Source: Styela clava (lineage: Eukaryota > Chordata > Ascidiacea > Stolidobranchia > Styelidae). Taken from it: a DNA stretch of 64,000 nucleotides. The position numbers and the translations under genes are program-made. The notes below the pieces were generated by a model. That model was not told where the DNA came from. It searched no databases and was given only the letters and a program-made list of their open reading frames with translations. Numbering within the stretch: position 1 is the stretch's first letter; each line of letters starts with the position of its first letter. Location: NCBI RefSeq assembly GCF_964204865.1, contig NC_135262.1, positions 9,920,001 through 9,984,000 on the forward strand, written 5' to 3'. Shown one piece after another: positions 16,858 through 48,926 of the stretch.

Positions 16858-18852
16858 TTATGATCCAAATTCTACTGTACTATCTTCAATTGGCTTGAAT
16901 TCGTATTTTCCTCGGCCATCCATATGAAGATAATATTCATGATGCTTCCATAATGATTTTCTATGTGACACAGTGAAAAGAGTAATTCCAACTGCACGAC
17001 AATGTTGGTAGATGAATCCTTCAACATCTACACTGACAGCACTTGTACATTCATCTAAAATAGCAAATTGAGGTTTGTGATAGAAAAGCCTTGCCATCGC
17101 CATACGTTGTTTCTCACCACCACTGAGAACATCCATCCAGTCTTGCACAGAGTTCCATCCACCTTCTCGTTCAAGAATATTTTCAAGTTGGACTTTTTGC
17201 AAAATTTCTTGCAACTGCTCATCTGAGAATCCATTTTTCAACATCTCTTTTTTTGAGTCTGGATAGATAACTTGATCACGCAAAGTACCCAATGTCATGT
17301 AAGGCCTTTGCGGAACATAAAACAACTTTCCTCGAGATGGTTTTGTGACCGTACCTCCAAACAGAGGCCATAATTCACCGAGAACTCTGAAAAGAGAACT
17401 TTTTCCACATCCATTTGGACCACAGACTAATACATTTTTGCCCGAGTGAACTGTAAAACTCATTTCTTCAATTAAAACGTCTCCATTTGGGGTCACAAGT
17501 GGGACTTTGTCAAAGCAAATAATGTAATCCTTGGTGATGATTTTTCCACTTCCAGGTACCAATTCCATGGATTTTTTGGATTTCCTCCCGTCTTTCTCAT
17601 CATTTTTGCTGACCATGGTTCTTTCATAATGCCCTTCATTCAATTCTTTCGTGACTTTCATCAGCTCTGTGACTCTCAAAGTAAAACCCGATAACCTTGT
17701 CATTTCTCGTCCGGCAAGTACTATCCTGCCAATCGCTTGTGAGAGTCGTACCAACATACGTCCACTCGTATAATAATCTTCCAAAAGCTCTGAATGAGAA
17801 TAATTATCAAATCTGTCATTCTTTAGATCCATAAATGGACGACTCACTATCAAATATCCACAGGTTGTCGCAGTGTATTTTGCAATGATATCATCTACAA
17901 TTCCCATTCTGAAGCGGAAACCAACAAATTTCTGTAAATGATCATACAACTTTTTGAACGTTAGAAGAATGGTATTCTTCTCTTTCTCATTACCATTATA
18001 GAAGGCAATTTCCTCGCTATTGGTAATTAAACGAGAGTTGACGTATCTGAATTCTCCTTCCAATTGCTGTTCTGTCACAGTCAATTTTCCAATAGGTTGA
18101 CGCATTCTCGTTAAAATCATTCCAGAAACGACAAGATATGCTATCATTGTTGCTGGCCCTTGTGCACCAATGGTATCTGTCAATCTATAAATGTAGATGA
18201 GAATGTCCAACAGCGGTTTACTGATATTTGAATACAAGTCGACAACACTATTGCAGAATCTTTCAATATCTTGAGTTAATAGTTGATCTGGATTGGCAAT
18301 TCTATTATCAAGATTACTCATTTTATAATAAGTATATCCTTGAAGATAATGCTCATACATGTGTAATGTGAACTGCTTTCTGAAATGAAGTTTGAGTGCA
18401 TTCAGTCCATACTTGAGCATTTGATTGGTTAGAGCAATCGCTGGTTGCATAGAAATATATTTAAAAAGATATCGAAGAAACCGGCTCCGATCTCTGGCAA
18501 TAATAGAACTTTCAATTGACGTCCCATTTTTGATCATCCACACATCAAATCTTGTTCGCATGATCAACATCAAAGCAACTAGAATCAAAAGGCCAGTTTC
18601 TTTTGACCACCAACCAGGCACCATAATTCGTAGAATCTGTTTGAGTCTACGAATGAAATTCATGTCTATAGCGGCTTTTTCTTTGGCGCCATTTTTACCA
18701 GATTTTGTGAAAACTATGTCACTTTCTTTATCTTTAGATTTGGTTCCAGATCGATATAATCCTAAAAAGTGTGCAGTAAGTACCAAACCAGTTCCATAAG
18801 CAGCAAATCGCAAATAACGATAATCCGCCAACTTGCTTAGAACAGGAGCCAT
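16858..18852 (-). CDS. ABCD3: ABCD3/PMP70-like peroxisomal ABC half-transporter, intronless
   Basis: A single uninterrupted 664-residue frame from ATG to stop, close to the vertebrate PMP70 length (659). An N-terminal hydrophobic half is followed by the EAA-like loop NSEEIAFYNGNEKEK, then a nucleotide-binding domain: Walker A GPNGCGKSS at about 478, Q-loop in VPQRPYM, signature LSGGEKQRMA at about 576, Walker B FAILDECTSAVS and the H-loop in VSHRKSLWKHH. Family role: a homodimeric peroxisomal membrane pump importing long-chain and branched acyl-CoAs for beta-oxidation. The start is favoured because MAPVLSKL... resembles the PMP70 N terminus. The absence of introns contrasts with the neighbouring multi-exon genes and may mean retroposition or intron loss. 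All motifs are intact, so it looks functional. Confidence 0.95.
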   Translation of the reverse strand: MAPVLSKLADYRYLRFAAYGTGLVLTAHFLGLYRSGTKSKDKESDIVFTKSGKNGAKEKAAIDMNFIRRLKQILRIMVPGWWSKETGLLILVALMLIMRTRFDVWMIKNGTSIESSIIARDRSRFLRYLFKYISMQPAIALTNQMLKYGLNALKLHFRKQFTLHMYEHYLQGYTYYKMSNLDNRIANPDQLLTQDIERFCNSVVDLYSNISKPLLDILIYIYRLTDTIGAQGPATMIAYLVVSGMILTRMRQPIGKLTVTEQQLEGEFRYVNSRLITNSEEIAFYNGNEKEKNTILLTFKKLYDHLQKFVGFRFRMGIVDDIIAKYTATTCGYLIVSRPFMDLKNDRFDNYSHSELLEDYYTSGRMLVRLSQAIGRIVLAGREMTRLSGFTLRVTELMKVTKELNEGHYERTMVSKNDEKDGRKSKKSMELVPGSGKIITKDYIICFDKVPLVTPNGDVLIEEMSFTVHSGKNVLVCGPNGCGKSSLFRVLGELWPLFGGTVTKPSRGKLFYVPQRPYMTLGTLRDQVIYPDSKKEMLKNGFSDEQLQEILQKVQLENILEREGGWNSVQDWMDVLSGGEKQRMAMARLFYHKPQFAILDECTSAVSVDVEGFIYQHCRAVGITLFTVSHRKSLWKHHEYYLHMDGRGKYEFKPIEDSTVEFGS

Positions 18853-19025
18853 TTTAATAAATTACATATACGCTTGAGTACTAAATAGGAAAATGTGTCA
18901 GATTAATATAAATGACTACAATAAGCAGAAATGAGAGCAAGTCTACTGACCTACTTTGAATTTGAGCAAAACATGTAAAATTATTTCCAAAGTTTTATTT
19001 AAACTAATTTGTTAGGATAGGATTT

Positions 19026-31856: not shown

Positions 31857-32783
31857 TTAAGAAGTCAAATTTGTTAAATCTTGGGGACTTCTATATTCTT
31901 CGGAACGCTCCTTTGCTGAGCAGGTATTGGCTTTAAAAAGAGGACACAGCCTCTCTTTCCAATCAGCAAAACAAAATAAAACGCAGCACAAATTGATTAC
32001 TATATTCCAATGATAAACTGCTGCAAAACCAGTTGAAAATAGAACCGATATTGCAAGAATGTCCGTAACTATTGCTATTGGTGTAATGATTAGAGATCTA
32101 GTCAATAATTTAATGAGATTTGTTGGTGGATTTTGTCCTGTGAAGGATTTTTTGAAATTTCTCCTGTGGCGAAGTAAAGGCACTAAAAACAATACTAGGG
32201 TAGCAATTTGCGTTTCAACTTGGAACAATAACAATAGAAGCATGGTCCAAACTGGGAAGCATGCAGCGTCTGTTAAATTTTTTATCATCACTAAATACCA
32301 AGTTACAAAAATGACCAATATGGCGAAAAACAACATAAAAAAGCCTTGAAATGAACTGAAAAATCCTAAAAACTTTGACGAAAGATGTTTTAATGAAGGA
32401 ACAGTATGATACATTGTTTGACGAAGCCACAATACAAAATAAACAGAAAAGTACGAATAATCAGTCAATAAAGCTTCACTCAAAAAGATCGCTGGTGTAA
32501 ATTGAAAGAAAAGTAAAATCGTTAATGCCATTCTGGATATTGCAATCAATCCTGTTACAACAATAACCATACTCATTACTGATCTGAGATTAGATGCTAA
32601 TGAAATATTTTTCAAATTTCCGATTTTGTACAGTTCATTGACGATCAGTACATATACTTGGCAGAGGGTAATGTAGATTAAAACAACCAGTGTAGCCACA
32701 TCCAGATAAAATTCCCATGTATATAATTTATCCGATTGTTTGTACGATGGTTCAGCATCAGATGAGCAATTCGTTTCAAACAT
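31857..32783 (-). CDS. Intronless seven-pass membrane protein, unassigned family (paralogue of 48030-48926)
   Basis: A single 308-residue frame. The short N terminus carries an NCS glycosylation sequon, then seven hydrophobic helices at about 29-49, 68-93, 108-130, 150-172, 180-203, 228-252 and 258-275. Features shared with the paralogue: the end of helix 3 LWLRQTMYHT followed by SLKHLSS, the helix 5 motif FQVETQIATL, SLIITPIAIVTDI opening helix 6, and CCVLFCFADWKERL closing helix 7. The topology suggests a GPCR or chemoreceptor-type protein, but there is no DRY or NPxxY motif and I do not recognise the family. Intronless form is common among invertebrate chemoreceptors; that role is an inference. 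Confidence 0.8.
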   Translation of the reverse strand: MFETNCSSDAEPSYKQSDKLYTWEFYLDVATLVVLIYITLCQVYVLIVNELYKIGNLKNISLASNLRSVMSMVIVVTGLIAISRMALTILLFFQFTPAIFLSEALLTDYSYFSVYFVLWLRQTMYHTVPSLKHLSSKFLGFFSSFQGFFMLFFAILVIFVTWYLVMIKNLTDAACFPVWTMLLLLLFQVETQIATLVLFLVPLLRHRRNFKKSFTGQNPPTNLIKLLTRSLIITPIAIVTDILAISVLFSTGFAAVYHWNIVINLCCVLFCFADWKERLCPLFKANTCSAKERSEEYRSPQDLTNLTS

Positions 32784-33071
32784 GGTTCCAAAAACTTGCA
32801 GACTTCAGTGCGTGGATACACTTTTCAGATGTATTATAAATTTTTATTTTTCTAGAGGAGAAGAGATAATAAATATCATATTTATTCAAATTTTTTACTT
32901 CACATGATCTTCGTTATAGAATTTCAATTTCATGTTATTTGAGTCTAATTGTGTCTAAGAACGCATACGGAATGGTAAATACGCTTAGATTCTTAAGCAA
33001 CTCACTCTGAAATACTTGTACATAATAGGAGTAACTAACAAGCTCATTCGGACAAAATACAATATTTAGAG

Positions 33072-39420: not shown

Positions 39421-40847
39421 CTAAAACGGACAGATAACACTGTAACTATGAAACTATGAAAACGAAGCCTGCTTGAACATCTGTCTGAGCGGCTGCAAAA
39501 ACACAGGTCATGCTGCACACTAACACAAATATATTTTTGTAACGTTTGTCTGACCAAGGTCAGACTTCTTCATAGTTCAACCTAATCGATAGCACATGTT
39601 TGGCGCCAATATAGCAACCCTGGTCTAGACACGCAATATTCCACACTTTATTTTAAAACCTTGGCAGCGAAAAAACTTGCATTTGTTACTTGATAATATG
39701 CTTTATCGGGCTTGCCCAGACTCAAATACTGTATGTGTACCAGTATATTGTATTTTGCGCATGTGAAGTACTGTATTCTCCTTGTTGCTGAACACACAAC
39801 TGGTTCGAGACAATTTTTGGGGGTATTTCAATAAAATATACATCAGACGCAATCGACTGCTCGAGACGTGGCGATCGACGTGTTTGCCACCCCCGGTGAA
39901 TTGCACGCAATCTGAATATAAAGCGAGGCTAAATAATGCACCCACTGTCTATATTCATCTTTATTTTTTTTCAGATATACTGAGATTTGTTTTTTTTCAT
40001 TCGGTAGATAAACACATTCATTAGATTTTAACTTATATACATGTTTGTTCACAATCCAGATTCCTCACCCTTCTATATGCTGTTTTATTTTTGCGAATGA
40101 ATCAAACTAAAATCTATCTAATTATATAGAAATCAATGACGCGTGACTGTTGGGAATAATTAAGTACTTCACATGCCGGTGGGCTGTCTATGATGTATAT
40201 TCGTCGTGTACTCCCAAACATCAGCTTACCCATCTCTTGCACCTATTTTATAGCCACCAACTGAAGGTCGTATAAAACATCACTGGGCAACTCAAGTATT
40301 GAATCTTCAGATAAGTGAATATTTACAACGGAGTTAATGGGGATATGATCATTGCTATTAAGCACAATATATATGCATATAATAGGCTTATACTAGTATT
40401 TTATTTATATTTAATTATGTTATTTTGATTTGATTTTAGCAATGCCAACAAAAATATAACTTTATTGTTAAAATAAAATGAAATCAATCTTATAGATATA
40501 GTTTATGGAATAGCTTGACAATCTTGATAAATATGAATCCTTCCCGTCTACTTTGCAGTGACCATCCATGCACGACGAAAAAATTGTTTGCCTGTTATCT
40601 CGTCCGTGAGTGTCAGGGAACGCGAGCCTATGTTGAACTTAAATACACTGAGTTTCTTTCTTGAAAAAAAAAGATACCACTCTCAACGATATGATTATGC
40701 ACTTTTATATAAATTTGATAAAAACATGTTTCCTGATATTATATTGGAAACGTGTGGCAAGGTGGTGTAAATTTAGTTCAGCGGTAATTATATACAATTT
40801 GTTACCGATTAATTCTTGACACGACACTCAAGCCTAAGCTCGAGTTT

Positions 40848-43800
40848 CTATTTCCAATTTTTATTCGAAGCACCTTGACATTGTCTGAAGTTGAAACAAT
40901 CAATGCCGGGGTCATAGCTATCATTTACGGAGTTTGATTTTAAAAAGTGTTGTAGATGATGTAAACTAAAGTGTTGATATGAGGAAAGAATTTTCAATAA
41001 ATAGACAGACACCAACCGCTTGCCATTCAACTAAATTCTCCCAGACCTTTCGAGAATTCTACTTAATTAATGATCAAATTTACAATTATGATACTTACGG
41101 CTGAGTGGTTATTCCGACAAGAAACAGTTCACCATTGACAACAAGTGATTTCACGAATTTTCCTTCTATAAAAGGCCATTCACTTGCAATTTCCAGACAG
41201 CTCCATGTTTCATTCGGTATATCGAACATTTGAATTCCAATATCATCTGCATTAATAATCTCAATTTAGATATTTGTAAGATAGAATATAAATATCTTCA
41301 TAGCCGTTCACGAATGTTCGGCAAACAATTGGGAATATATTTGATGAAAATCGAGATTTATAGTAAACGTGATGCATTTTATGTGATGCATTTTAGTTTA
41401 TATTACCTGAAACATATATAAAGTCGTCCAATTTAACGGCACTTCCAAGACACGTTTTAGACAACAAGTGTTTGATTTTCTGCCAAGTGTTAGATTTGCG
41501 ATCATATTTCAAGGACAAATTCAAGATATTTCCTGCGGTATCTTGACCTCCAAGACAATAGATCCCGCCTGAAAAACCACCAAACTTCAAGACATGCTGA
41601 GTTATTACCCTGTCTCATTCTATACGGAAAAACTGGATTATAAGACCAAATTAATACGCATTTTACTATACCTTTTTCAGGCACTAAAATCACAGAAGTC
41701 CTTGCAAACTCTAAATCTTGAATATATGTCCATGTCTTTTTCCTGGAATCAAACATTTCTGCAACGTACGTAGTAACAGGGAAATTTCCTCCACAGACAT
41801 AGATACAATCTAATTAAAATTTAAAATCATATTCACGGAAAGGAAAGTTGTCGAAATTAATTAGATTAATTGGCGATAATTAATTAATTAGAGACCAATT
41901 AGAGATAATTTATAAACGAGATAATTGAGTCAATTTTACTGTGATGGAGATAAAATTACATTACAAATATGGGAGCGCCAACCATTCAATGCCGCAGCAG
42001 GCGGACAGAATCCGTGGTCCTTCAACATATCAGCCATTCTTTCCAAGGTAGAAGATGAATCAGTATATTTCAGACGATAAGTTGATTTTGTACATCCTGC
42101 TAACATGTAAACGTATCCATTCAAGGAAACAATTGAAAACCATTTGCAGTTTAAATCTCTCAGTGATATCTGAAAATAACAAGATATGTAAAATTAAAAT
42201 TAAGAAGATAGAAAACATGACGTTTATTATTATATATAGAGTTATAGACAGTAAGATATATAAACCTGGATTTCCTTCCACTGTTTAGTTTCTGGATTGT
42301 AGAGGTGAAAATGCTCGGAGTATTCGTCATATATCAACATAACCTCATCTAATCAATAATATAAAATATAATATACCAGTAGATAAGCAGAGCATATATC
42401 AGATAGATCACCAGTAGATAAGCAGGTTAATTTGTTTCTTTCTATAATTTTTTTAAAATTTCAAATTATTCGAAAATGTTTAGTGATATTTTCTACATTT
42501 AAAGAATTCCGTGTCACGGGTGCCATCAAATATGGACTTTTTAAATGTTCGCTTATCCTTGGAAAACTAATTGTTTATTTAAATACAACTTTTCATGTTA
42601 TTAATTCCTTCTATAAAGTAAAATATAAAATACAATGAAAAATACCTTGCGAGGAAAAAACTACAGAATACTGGAATAACGCATGACCTTTGAGTTCATC
42701 TGCACTTGGACGTTGGTATGGTTCAAATTTCAACATTCGACTGAGCATGTTTGTGGCCTTCTTCACGTGATTTATTAAGAGCCCCTCTAGGTTTAGATTT
42801 TTATTCATTTTTATGTTATAATTCCACAAATCAGGTTCTGCACCGAATGGATGCAGTCCATTACTCCATAGAAAATACATGACAAGACCAAGAGAGAATA
42901 TATCGGCTTGTTGAGATATAATATCATGTAGATATGTTTCAGGTGCCCTGAATCCATCGGTTCCAACACGTGCAATACTTTGAGCTGTTACAGAGCAACC
43001 ATGTCGTAATTCTTTGCTCAAACCAAAATCTGTGATTTTCACGTGTAACTTATCGTGAGTGAGTAAAATATTACTAGGCTTGAGATCTCGATGAATCACG
43101 CTCTTTGAGTGTATAAACGCTAAACCATTTATTAGTTCTTTTGCCATTGAAATACGTAAAGATGCTTCGAATGATTTCCTTGATAGTTTATGTTCTTTAA
43201 CCCAACTTTCAAGATTCTGTGCGTGACATAGTTCCATTGCAATGTACATACGTTTACTAAACGGTCCTTCATTATAGACGTCTGAGTGAATAATAGACAC
43301 GACATTTGGATGATGCGCCAGCTTAAGTAGTATTTTTGCCTCTTTGATATTCTGGCTGTTATATGGGAGGAATTTGATAACAATCGGCCTCGAACCTGTG
43401 ACTATACTTTTTTGTTCGCCTCGATAAATATGTGCTCTTTCGCATATTGGATCGCTTTTGTATACACGTAAAGAATCGGATAAATCCGCAAAATCTGTAA
43501 AAAAAATTTCAAATTAAACTAATTCAAGCAAATAAAATTCAATATTGGCAAAACTTTTTCGCGATATTTTTTTTTTATTAAATCGCGATAGTTGGCTGAG
43601 TACTATATAAATTGAGGGATATCCCATTTTATACTTATATAGTATTTACCTTTTTCCGCATTTGATTCTTTTTCTTCAAGTTCTGTATCTGAAATTAAAA
43701 ATCACAAAAATTTGTGAAGTCAAGTTTTAAGCGGTTGAAAGTCAGGCTCTTCACAACCCTAAAGTGTGAGCCACTATTCACCCAGTTTCCAGAAATTATT

Positions 43801-45997
43801 TAATTGAAGCTCTGAAATGACTGATAAGGTAATTCAAAAAAGTTTCGAATACCTTTTTCATTACTTTTGTAAAACTTTTATACTAATAAAATTCTCTGCA
43901 GATTTTGCTCTATATAGTCATTTTCAAAACTTACCGTATTTGGTAATGTACGTTTTGTTGATTATCCGAGTTCCGAAATGGGCTCCTTTTAAATCTGCTC
44001 CTGCAAAGTCTGACGAAAAGACAAAATTAGAAAGCAATCTAAATTTGAATGACAATGGATTTAGAGAGCATGATATGGCGTAAGTGTAATTAATAAATGA
44101 ATAAACAAACAGCCCCAATATCAAGAATATCTTTTTGCGTAAACTTAGAGGACTTAGTTGACCCAGATATCAATTTAAACGAAACGTTTTGACTGAGCCG
44201 AAAGACATAATTGTATATCCACGAAACCCATCGAAGAAACTCACTCTAATAACGTGGAATAACGCAGGTATAGCAACTGTAAAAATGGAGACAAGACTTA
44301 CCCTGTTTTTGCAAGTTGTAATTTTTTGCTCCAATCGAAGCCCCAGAAAGATTACTTCCGTCGATGTCAACTGAAATTAAAATGCGACAATTATACAAAA
44401 ATATTCATGATGTTCTTACTTGGTGTACCATGCCATTGACTATTTTGAATTTATATTATATGTTTCTGAAACCTTCTAGAAATAAATATATCATAGCTTA
44501 AAAATTAAAACGTTTGCGAATCATCGATTAACATAATCCTATAAACAATAAACTGAAAACAAATTATTGTTTGTTTAATCAACGCAGTATTATGCTAATT
44601 ATCCTCACCAGGCTGTGTATTCATCAGGCTAAAGGCAATTCATTTCATTGTTATAAAATTCAATCAAATCACAACAAAGTGAACTGAGACACCTTCGTAA
44701 GTAGCCTAACCCTGAACGTCAAACCTAAACCATTTATGTAAAATGGTTTAAATGTAAAATCTGTGGTGAAATTAATTCGTATGTAGTTCTTGTCAACGTG
44801 GTCATAAAAGCATAAGTTGCCAAAAATTAATTTCAGGTTTCAAACAATAGGCAGAGTAAATGAAAATTGGCACATATTCCAATGTATGCAAATTAACGAT
44901 TTGCTGGAGGAAGTTGAATAATATATTCAAATTAAAAGACAATTTTGTGACTCATATGCCGTTATGTTGGGTAATGCAGTTACACACTTGCTTTCGAGAA
45001 TAAAAAATCACGACATGTTTGATTTTTATATTATGTATACAATAAATTTTCTATATATATTGAGTATTTGCTCTTTTCTAACACTGGATTATTTTTCAAG
45101 CCGTCACAACTATTTGTAAAGATACCCGGATTCAATTGGAAGTCTTGATTTCATGATACAAAAAATGTTATACGTTTTTACCAACTTTAAATATCAATGT
45201 AAAACACAACTGCCAAATTCTATGAAAACATTCTGATGATAAACTACACGTAAGTTGAAACAACATGTCAATAACTTTGCTTACAAACATTGTTTGGCTG
45301 GGTTGTCGCCGTTTCACCATCCTGACTTTCACTTCTTAAAAGGATTCGTTGTGATTCAATGTTGTCCAATATTTCCTTGTGAGCAATAGCTACTTTTAAT
45401 ATAATATATAACTGATTACCAACACGTTGACGTTAGTTACCAAAGATTGTAATATCCTAAATTATACGTGTTGCGAAATTACTTTTTTCTTTAGAACCTT
45501 GATAATATGCATGGTATTTAATATGAACAAAGTAGCAAAACAAAATCGTCTTAAGAAAACCTTGCAAGGGTATAAAAATAACTAACACGTTGGGTAATCA
45601 AAAAATTGTTTATGTTTTATTTTCTTGTGCTATTCTGCAAAAACAGCGTGTTCATCGTTGAAATTGTGTCAGGTTCTAGTTTTGCAATTTAAGTGTTAAG
45701 CTTTAAAGCTTAATCGTTTTAAGAAAACCTTGCAAGGGTATAAAAATAACTAACACGTTGGGTAATCAAAAAATTGTTTATATTTTATTTTATTGTGCTA
45801 TTCTGCAAAAACAGTGTGTTCATCATTGAAATTGTGTCAGGTTCTAGTTTTGCAATTTAATTGTTAAGCTAAAATAGTGGCAACATTCAACTTTAAATGA
45901 CGCAATGTTTCATTGTTTATTTCCGTAAGGAGTGACACAAATATAAGATGAAAAAAATTATATTAAGAAGAAAGTTACCCCCTGGTTGTTCCTCCAT
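40848..45997 (-). CDS. Pentapeptide-like / IRE1-like kinase / kelch-repeat fusion protein
   Basis: Twelve exons: 45979-45997, 45285-45392, 44302-44370, 43935-44009, 43650-43688, 42646-43494, 42266-42348, 41983-42169, 41672-41809, 41407-41568, 41099-41246, 40848-40884. They sum to 1914 nt and give 637 aa, and nearly all introns are phase 1. Residues 43-90 hold two pentapeptide-like stretches (SNLSGASIG, FAGADLKGAHFG) in separate exons. Residues about 110-380 form a kinase domain: Lys144 in VIKFLP, helix-C Glu155, HRDLKPSN (238-245), DFG at 259 and GTDGFRAPE, the last as in IRE1/RNase L. Residues about 387-625 carry kelch repeats with CGG/LGG turns and paired Tyr/Trp. There is no signal peptide, membrane helix or KEN RNase domain. 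The likely product is a cytosolic active kinase with a beta-propeller binding platform. The small first and last exons are the least certain. Confidence 0.82.
45544..45868. repeat. Tandem duplication (unit 168 bp) in intron 1 of the kinase-kelch gene
   Basis: Two nearly identical units beginning AATCGTYTTAAGAAAACC start at 45544 and 45712, including AACACGTTGGGTAATC and AGGTTCTAGTTTTGC in both. Few mismatches indicate a recent duplication. No coding content. Confidence 0.9.
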
Positions 45998-46990: not shown

Positions 46991-48029
46991 GGAATAAGGA
47001 ATGAATATTGGGAAAAATGAAACAACAAACAAGAACATAATTAGGGCAGTTTAAAATAGAAAAGTGCCACCATTTTCTCGGTTTTTGAAAATGCTAACGC
47101 GTTCAGATCCGAGTAAATAAATACCGTCTTACTAGTCCTAGTCCTATCCTAAAATTATTAGCATTGCTCAATGAATCCTATATGAAACTATGAAATTATA
47201 CTCAGATTAATTTATTTGTATATATTTATTGTGTGAATGTATACTTATATTGTACAAATTAATAACGCGTCCTTGCAAATTGATTTGGGACTGTTCTTTG
47301 CCAAATTGGCCGATTACTGAGAAAACATTTTGCGATTTCGTTTAATACCAAAAAAAATATGAGCTGATGTTATTTTGCGCGAATAAAAAATTGCGGGATC
47401 GTATTACTGCAAACAAGGTACGTTTACGCGTTTTCTGAGAAAACAAAATTCACATTTCCGCGAAAGACCATTCTTGCAAAAGCATGTTTTTGTAAAACTA
47501 CATTCTCACAATCGTATGTTCTCGCAGATGGTGGCCCAGAATAGATGTTTGAGCAACAGCCACAAAACATTAAAACAAAAATTGAAAAATTGCTGCTTGC
47601 AAAAGATCGAAACATAATGCAACTGCATTAGCTAAATATAAAATAGTAAGCATGTTCCAACATGATGTACGAATGATAGGCCACGACATATGTAAAAAGT
47701 AGCTATTCATGTAATTTTCATCGGCGACCAAAACGCTTTCGAAATAGATACTGGATCTTAGAACTAACTTATTGATGTTATTCCAAGGATCGTGTTAGAA
47801 ATCAAAAATCAAGACGATTATTCATATAATGATCTGTGAATCATTTTTGATTCGAATTTGAGAGTTGTACAACCCAAACGTCGACGCATCTCACGCATCG
47901 CCTCGGTATAAATAGAAAGATTGCGAATGAAAGAAAACAGTATGAGTAAGAGGATTTGTCTCGGGTTTCGACGTGGAGCGAGTAGTCAAGTTGTATTTCT
48001 CGCATTTGGTAAAAATATATTTCGAAGAT
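46991..48029. other. Intergenic region before the plus-strand seven-pass gene
   Basis: Contains the presumptive promoter of the 48030 gene. Short ORFs on the minus strand (47424-47615, 47841-48062) lack domain support. Confidence 0.4.
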
Positions 48030-48926
48030 ATGAATTGTTCTTCGAACGTCACTGCTGCACAAACTGATTTACTGCCATGGGATTTTTATGTGGATGCGTC
48101 GATTTCTTCTATTTTATTTTACATTACATTGTGTCAAATATATATATTAATCAAAAAAAGACTTTGGAAAATCCATGCAGAATCTATCAAAGACATCTTG
48201 TCACCAACAAATCTACGGTCAATTATGAGCATATGCATTGTTGTATCAGGATTTCTTTCTTTGATTAAAATGTTCAGTCAGTTAGCATTGTATTTCGACC
48301 CAGCTCATCCTGTACACTATAGCATTTCAGTTTCTTTAACAGGATTTAGTTTTATGTTTGTGTATCTTACATTATGGTTTCGTCAATCTATGTTTCATAC
48401 TGTGATCTCTTTAAAGCATCTTTCGTCAAATCCTTTAAAAATATTTAGTTATATTCAATTTTACGTTATTGTAGTTTTTAGTTTTATCTTATTTGGTATT
48501 TTTATAGCACATCAAATTATGAGCCGAGGATATTTTAGATTACCATGTTTTCCAACTTGGTATTTATTTTTAATAATATTTTATCAAGTTGAAACTCAAA
48601 TTTCAACTTTGATTCTTTTTTTGATTCCTCTCCTACGACACAGAAATAACACAAGAACAATTTCGGCATCACAAGAACCATCCGTAGTTTTCATGCGTTT
48701 ATTAAAAAGATCATTCATAATCACACCCATAACGATTGTGACTGATATTATTGCACTAGTAGTTTTATATTTTGGAGATCACTCGCTTATTTATAGCCTG
48801 AATCTGGTAATTAATTTATGTTGCGTGATATTTTGTTTCGCTGACTGGAAAGAACGGTTTCTACCTTGTTTCAATTCTTTTAAAGATTGTTGTGAACCTT
48901 ACTGCTTAAAAGACAATATACCATAA
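48030..48926 (+). CDS. Intronless seven-pass membrane protein (paralogue of 31857-32783)
   Basis: A 298-residue single-exon protein. An upstream in-frame ATG exists at 47973, but the second Met at 48030 (MNCSSNVTAAQ) aligns with the paralogue's start and gives the same short N terminus with NCS and NVT sequons. Seven hydrophobic helices follow. Shared blocks are WDFYVD before helix 1, TLCQIYIL, LWFRQSMFHT then SLKHLSS, FYQVETQIS, IITPITIVTDI and CCVIFCFADWKERF. Overall similarity to the minus-strand copy is moderate, so the duplication is not recent. Family and ligand are unknown; a chemosensory or other receptor role is only an inference from topology and gene structure. Confidence 0.8.
   Translation: MNCSSNVTAAQTDLLPWDFYVDASISSILFYITLCQIYILIKKRLWKIHAESIKDILSPTNLRSIMSICIVVSGFLSLIKMFSQLALYFDPAHPVHYSISVSLTGFSFMFVYLTLWFRQSMFHTVISLKHLSSNPLKIFSYIQFYVIVVFSFILFGIFIAHQIMSRGYFRLPCFPTWYLFLIIFYQVETQISTLILFLIPLLRHRNNTRTISASQEPSVVFMRLLKRSFIITPITIVTDIIALVVLYFGDHSLIYSLNLVINLCCVIFCFADWKERFLPCFNSFKDCCEPYCLKDNIP

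Follow-up and report, generated by a model that had tools for sequence, protein, structure and literature searches.

Does the IRE1-like kinase gene that lies in a 64,000-nucleotide stretch of the Styela clava genome (assembly GCF_964204865.1, contig NC_135262.1, positions 9,920,001 to 9,984,000 of the forward strand; hereafter the window) encode one protein in which kelch repeats stand where a KEN nuclease domain would be expected, and what might such a protein do? The gene runs from 45997 to 40548 on the minus strand of the window, whose contig is C17 in the assembly numbering used for our genome-wide searches. Its 12 exons join into one open frame, and in the splice model all 11 introns have GT-AG borders and consistent phases. 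Twelve exons in a single frame had already been proposed in an earlier note on this DNA; its count of 637 codons gives way to the 662 of the assembled frame.

A deposited protein model, P0001 (661 aa), is collinear with the window gene from first to last residue, with differences at 13 of 662 aligned columns. Its source label is calcium/calmodulin-dependent protein kinase type II subunit gamma-like isoform X1. The interval had previously been ended at 40848, which would imply a last exon near 40883-40848; P0001 uses 40659-40548 instead. Since P0001 matches throughout, an outside pipeline has likewise joined kinase and kelch. P0001 is a predicted model, and the one-gene structure rests on genomic sequence and such models. 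The exons are as follows.

45979-45997, minus strand: exon 1, start codon and MEEQPG (splice model; P0001 starts identically)
45285-45392, minus strand: exon 2, polar N-terminal stretch (100% identity to P0001 over 36 residues)
44302-44370, minus strand: exon 3, first short repeat-like N-terminal exon (DIDGSNLSGASIG...), with five-residue periodicity
43935-44009, minus strand: exon 4, second short exon (DFAGADLKGAHFG...NKTYITKY); similar exons precede sister kinases at six places
43650-43688, minus strand: exon 5, short acidic linker (splice model)
42646-43494, minus strand: exon 6, IRE1-like kinase domain with catalytic motifs (Pfam, PDB, motif check)
42266-42348, minus strand: exon 7, first kelch exon (splice model, paralogue comparison)
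41983-42169, minus strand: exon 8, kelch exon common to all eight kelch-bearing paralogue loci (homology searches)
41672-41809, minus strand: exon 9, kelch repeat, Kelch_1 (Pfam, splice model)
41407-41568, minus strand: exon 10, kelch repeat, Kelch_6 (Pfam, splice model)
41099-41246, minus strand: exon 11, kelch exon (splice model, paralogue comparison)
40548-40659, minus strand: exon 12, last exon and stop (37 residues, 97% identical to the P0001 C-terminus)

The same order of domains recurs elsewhere in the genome. A search with the kinase exon gave 136 scored matches from 316 candidates, and 20 loci of 10 kb were read around the best kinase paralogues. Kelch exons were found 3' of the kinase in eight of these: L025-L028 and L030 on C18, L031 and L033 on C1, and L032 on C4. 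In L027, the queries from the window gene picked up one kelch exon, and a more closely related query added another. There was no kelch match behind the kinase of L029 (C18), and none in the other 11 loci beyond a chance-level match in L036 (E 0.41). Counting the window gene, nine kinase-kelch genes were seen, and the genome holds at least nine. Together with L029 they form one clade in a kinase tree (Shimodaira-Hasegawa-like approximate likelihood ratio test, SH-aLRT, 94), with a single state change on the tree when L029 is left uncounted.

Database models tell a similar story: kinase and kelch likewise form one protein in P0002, P0003, P0004 and P0005, while P0006 is a short model ending inside the first kelch exon. 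Among the best 120 of 4632 protein matches, the named kinase-kelch proteins are all from Styela (P0001-P0005). P0044 combines a kinase and kelch too, but its identity is 28% and its parts are arranged differently; we take it to be unrelated to the Styela family, perhaps bacterial, and its existence means that the bare combination is not unique. In the titles and abstract openings of the literature searched, which gave partial coverage, we found no description of a kinase-kelch fusion of this kind. Taken together, kinase-kelch is well supported as a real, repeated domain architecture, and it appears to be lineage-specific. The earlier suggestion of a lineage-specific protein agrees with the named matches among the 120 listed, but the protein is not a lone one. 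Further kinase-family relatives (P0007, P0121, P0126, P0127, P0131 and P0133, of which P0121 is a pseudokinase-kinase pair) lie on short contigs, so the absence of kelch from them means little.

The kinase itself is encoded by exon 6 (43494-42646), where the motifs VIK, HRDLKPSN, DFG and GTDGFRAPE are all present, as previously read, with the lysine, HRD, DFG and APE motifs intact. Against Pfam Pkinase the exon reached 142.7 bits (cut-off 31.7). In a PDB sequence search, the top 16 matches were all IRE1 chains, from 97.8 to 89.7 bits, and the first non-IRE1 match was a calcium-dependent kinase at 86.5 bits. Identity to the kinases of the kelch-bearing paralogues is 50-57%. In a profile search, the rows from Styela and other assemblies were followed by proteins of plants, fungi and crustaceans, several of them having repeated kinase domains; further down came many KEN-bearing IRE1 proteins.

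A quick tree was built from 54 of 62 extracted kinase domains, omitting seven database rows near locus rows and one partial domain; duplicate loci L001-L008 had been dropped beforehand. The window kinase falls inside a 35-row family from Styela and other assemblies (SH-aLRT 95), separate from an IRE1 clade (SH-aLRT 100) that contains Styela's own KEN-bearing gene, L009. Because the fork linking the family to the IRE1 clade is weak (79), kinship with IRE1 is a matter of similarity, and the tree leaves descent from IRE1 unsupported. The earlier reading of an IRE1-like kinase is supported.

Kelch-type repeats C-terminal to the kinase, also part of the earlier note, were confirmed by Pfam: P0001 scored 54.7 bits for Kelch_1 (cut-off 20.1) and 58.3 bits for Kelch_6 (cut-off 25.3), and both are likewise above their cut-offs in the assembled window protein. 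They do stand where KEN was expected, as a genome search for KEN (PF06479) found 42 places, none of them on C17, and a Pfam scan of P0001 found none. The kelch tail aligned to those of P0003 and P0005 with scores of 301 and 267, compared to shuffle maxima of 50 and 51 (200 shuffles each). Outside the family, its closest relatives in the genome are kelch genes with long uninterrupted frames of 304-630 codons, the best at 30-35% identity. No BTB or BACK domain was among the Pfam matches of the window protein or P0001. The kelch domain is expected to fold as a beta-propeller. Exon-8-like kelch exons at 33-49% identity also occur at C18 1.055-1.107 Mb and C13 20.87-21.13 Mb, where the genome kinase search listed no nearby kinase.

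The N-terminal parts of the family are more varied. In five of the seven C18 and C4 loci read (L025-L028 and L032), the exon pair before the kinase encodes a DEATH-like domain; joined by eye, the pair scored 23.1 bits against a cut-off of 22.6, and P0003 was narrowly above the same Pfam cut-off at 22.8 bits. A genome search with Pfam Death listed 12 places and not these paralogue exons, which fits a weak, intron-split domain. No DEATH domain was found within the approximately 4 kb read before the kinases of L029 and L030, where it could lie further out.

In the window gene, exons 3 and 4 instead show a hydrophobic period of five residues, six in a row (shuffle chance 0.026), and a related exon on C10 shows the same period five in a row (0.039). 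Used as a genome query, exons 3-4 gave, besides themselves, three weak places (E ~3), each about 2 kb before an IRE1-like kinase on the same strand. With the C10 exon, six places were found at E <= 2e-10, itself included. All six of these exon-4-like places precede sister kinases on the same strand, at 1.6 to 8.2 kb, and none lies on the opposite strand. Since five of the six belong to a single tandem cluster on C2, they amount to about three independent cases, the window gene counted. A pattern scan for exon 3/4-like peptides across the 20 loci and the window gave one match outside the window that we judged related, in L034. We regard exons 3-4 as encoding a short, repeat-like motif that belongs to this kinase family and possibly serves in assembly.

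Two more specific identities for exons 3-4 were considered and rejected. The earlier note had seen pentapeptide-like wording in two exons; the five-residue period bears this out, but Pentapeptide (PF00805) reached 18.5 bits over 17 residues, below its cut-off of 20.2, and a pentapeptide-repeat domain was not accepted. A PDB sequence search (phmmer) with the N-terminal motif returned designed and natural pentapeptide proteins, the best being the designed 4yfo (E 2.5e-7) and the others weaker; 12 of 50 partial matches of shuffled-sum style were not counted in the pentapeptide comparison. Exon 3 also contains what we take to be a RHIM look-alike. RHIM membership was rejected, as PF12721 was nowhere over its cut-off in the genome and had no match in exons 3-4 at E 1, and as a PDB sequence search with a sister N-terminus gave nothing up to E 10.

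We compared nonsynonymous (dN) and synonymous (dS) change among five C18 paralogues, using 10 pairs each for kinase and kelch, and 6 pairs from four genes for the DEATH exon; the kelch comparison took as many exons as each pair shares. Mean dS was similar in DEATH (0.39), kinase (0.34) and kelch (0.43), while mean dN was 0.085, 0.085 and 0.25, giving pooled dN/dS of 0.22, 0.25 and 0.59, respectively, with DEATH and kinase under constraint. Kelch dN/dS exceeded that of the kinase in 9 of 10 pairs, and Fisher's test gave p<0.05 in 9 of 10, with pairs that overlap; the non-overlapping pairs L026-L027 and L028-L030 gave p=3.8e-5 and p=0.0021. No stop codons were present in any of the kelch, kinase or DEATH pieces compared, and in the pieces shown the kelch tryptophan (W) was kept, as was GG in most. 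Because kelch changes faster than the kinase among these paralogues, reading it as a recognition module is plausible.

The window protein has no strongly hydrophobic span, its best 19-residue hydropathy mean being 1.25 compared to 2.37 and 2.96 in two IRE1 proteins, and we infer that it is soluble and cytosolic. IRE1 and RIPK kinases are activated through clustering. We tentatively propose, at close to an even chance, that the window gene encodes a kinase of the cytosol that is activated by clustering and uses its kelch domain as a recognition surface. The presumed kelch propeller would serve as the recognition part, binding a foreign or damaged-self ligand. Assembly of the molecules would be aided by their N-termini, encoded by short repeat-like exons in the window gene and formed by a DEATH-type domain in several sisters. 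Crowding might then let the kinases phosphorylate each other; we draw this step from the way in which IRE1 and RIPK kinases work. The output would be phosphorylation of a downstream protein rather than RNA cleavage. A sensor role is plausible for kinase-kelch proteins; an immune or stress role is conjectural, and a part in innate defence is possible.

Several observations weigh against this proposal. No DEATH domain was found in the window gene, and that of P0003 is barely above the cut-off. The pair L025-L030 shows no difference between kelch and kinase (p=0.77), and the L030 kelch exons align with small shifts. Kelch dN/dS is above 1 in just 1 of the 10 C18 pairs (1.05), and the faster kelch change among these paralogues could reflect relaxed constraint. 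Finally, the window copy and P0001 differ at 2 kelch and 8 kinase positions over similar lengths, so fast kelch change is seen in the C18 cluster and not in the window gene.

This near-identity of the kelch parts in two copies of the window gene suits a second explanation, in which kelch is a targeting module rather than a sensor and brings the kinase to one fixed endogenous substrate or to the cytoskeleton, the paralogues being specialised by tissue or partner. Kelch domains commonly bind protein partners, and the homology of the tail to the long-frame kelch genes of the same genome (30-35% identity) is in keeping with such a role. A single conserved partner would predict constraint, however, and among the C18 paralogues dN/dS is roughly twofold higher for kelch than for the kinase; we regard targeting as a possible but somewhat unlikely explanation.

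If the family members were instead redundant, with tandem copies of little function whose kelch tails are decaying under relaxed constraint, one would expect the many clustered copies (136 scored kinase places), a locus such as L029 with no kelch found behind its kinase, and a truncated model such as P0006. Decay fits less well with the uninterrupted reading of all pieces compared, the retained W and mostly retained GG, and a pooled dN/dS below 1, and we consider it improbable.

We also considered whether the protein is an IRE1-type sensor of endoplasmic-reticulum stress that has lost its nuclease and still serves the unfolded-protein response. IRE1 is the nearest of the solved structures to the window kinase; yet the low hydropathy, the lack of a lumenal-domain match in the Pfam scan of P0001, and the presence of L009 as a separate KEN-bearing Styela gene within the IRE1 clade (support 100) make this very unlikely. 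Least credible of all is that two neighbouring genes were mistakenly joined, given phase-consistent GT-AG introns, the presence of kelch behind the kinase at eight of the 20 paralogue loci, on contigs other than C17, and database models that make the same join for several paralogues.

Kelch is one of several tails among the sister kinases, which also bear KEN, Deltex-C, leucine-rich-repeat-like or pseudokinase sequence. Tail pairing was counted with 110 of the 136 kinase rows (small fragments, the second member of each C10 kinase pair and the weakest rows were omitted), 35 of 42 KEN rows (C3 lost six second pieces, C8 one weak row) and 50 of 52 rows for DTC, the Deltex C-terminal domain (without two first pieces). 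Of the 35 KEN places, 14 lay immediately behind a kinase, and of the 50 DTC places, 12 lay 2 to 11 kb behind one on the same strand, with no case on the opposite strand for either; the remaining 38 DTC places had no listed kinase within 12 kb. The database proteins P0122 and P0129 likewise combine kinase and DTC, over the Pfam cut-off. P0128, from Styela clava, has an IRE1-like kinase followed by leucine-rich-repeat-like sequence that is under the cut-off (LRR_1, 20.2 vs 20.6 bits). L040 and L041 (C10), L042 (C18) and L043 (C4) have a kinase that keeps its motifs followed by a second in which HRD and DFG are lost.

Known systems share some of these features. The window protein resembles IRE1 and RNase L in its kinase domain, with IRE1 as the 16 best solved-structure matches, and differs in having a kelch tail; KEN, a membrane span, a lumenal domain and an ankyrin domain were not found in it. 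With RIPK1 and RIPK3 the family shares a kinase plus an assembly module, and DEATH occurs in sister genes; in Styela, however, DEATH precedes the kinase, in sister genes only, and RHIM was not over its cut-off anywhere in the genome. The RIPK1 layout of kinase, RHIM and C-terminal DEATH is not that of the window gene, in which neither DEATH nor RHIM was found. KLHL/BTB-kelch proteins have kelch repeats, and the long-frame kelch genes are the tail's nearest relatives outside the family, but the window protein has a kinase and no BTB or BACK among its Pfam matches. The pairing of an intact and a degenerate kinase in L040-L043 recalls the plant tandem kinase-pseudokinase resistance proteins (Yr15), whereas the window gene has one kinase and the lineage is unrelated.

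A further tunicate parallel comes from Oikopleura, where PMC3710099 describes expansion of the KEN half separately from the kinase. In both animals IRE1-like proteins have been split into kinase and KEN, but in mirror image: the nuclease half multiplied in Oikopleura, the kinase half in Styela. The Styela family shows that the kinase half of such proteins can be put to use again without its nuclease.

A broader and rather unlikely scenario, offered as speculation, is that an IRE1-like kinase diversified in Styela into a family of receptor-kinases of the cytosol. Their C-terminal recognition or effector tails (kelch, Deltex-C, leucine-rich repeats or pseudokinase) would be interchangeable, assembly would fall to N-terminal modules (DEATH or else a short beta-solenoid motif), and the family would take the place in tunicates that RIPK kinases have in vertebrates, perhaps upstream of the MLKL retained by Styela. 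PMC12119088 reports no RIPK1 homologue in tunicates, and the MLKL species list in PMC11476962 includes Styela clava. A multigene family in which an IRE1-like kinase is combined with diverse tails and with N-termini of DEATH or repeat-like type would be a candidate for the missing upstream kinases in tunicates; any link to cell death is hypothetical. It would also be a candidate receptor family in a filter-feeding chordate, and its members may be unrecognised danger sensors.

Elsewhere in the genome, a large cluster of IRE1-like kinase genes occupies C10 at approximately 4.07-4.38 and 5.94-6.33 Mb. On C5, between 2.65 and 4.43 Mb, 11 of 14 kinase exons have a DTC exon <=12 kb behind them on the same strand. 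Tandem KEN-domain exons occur on C3 at 5.77-5.91 Mb, and the kinase search listed no kinase beside them. Within the window, intron 1 of the kinase-kelch gene contains a near-identical direct repeat at 45551-45860, in two copies 168 bases apart. The gene is flanked by two frames that look alike and rich in hydrophobic spans, at 31857-32804 (minus strand, 315 codons) and 47946-48926 (plus strand, 326 codons); neither matched a Pfam family at E 0.001. Further along, an uninterrupted 667-codon frame at 16858-18861 on the minus strand encodes an ABC transporter with the Pfam domains ABC_membrane_2 and ABC_tran.

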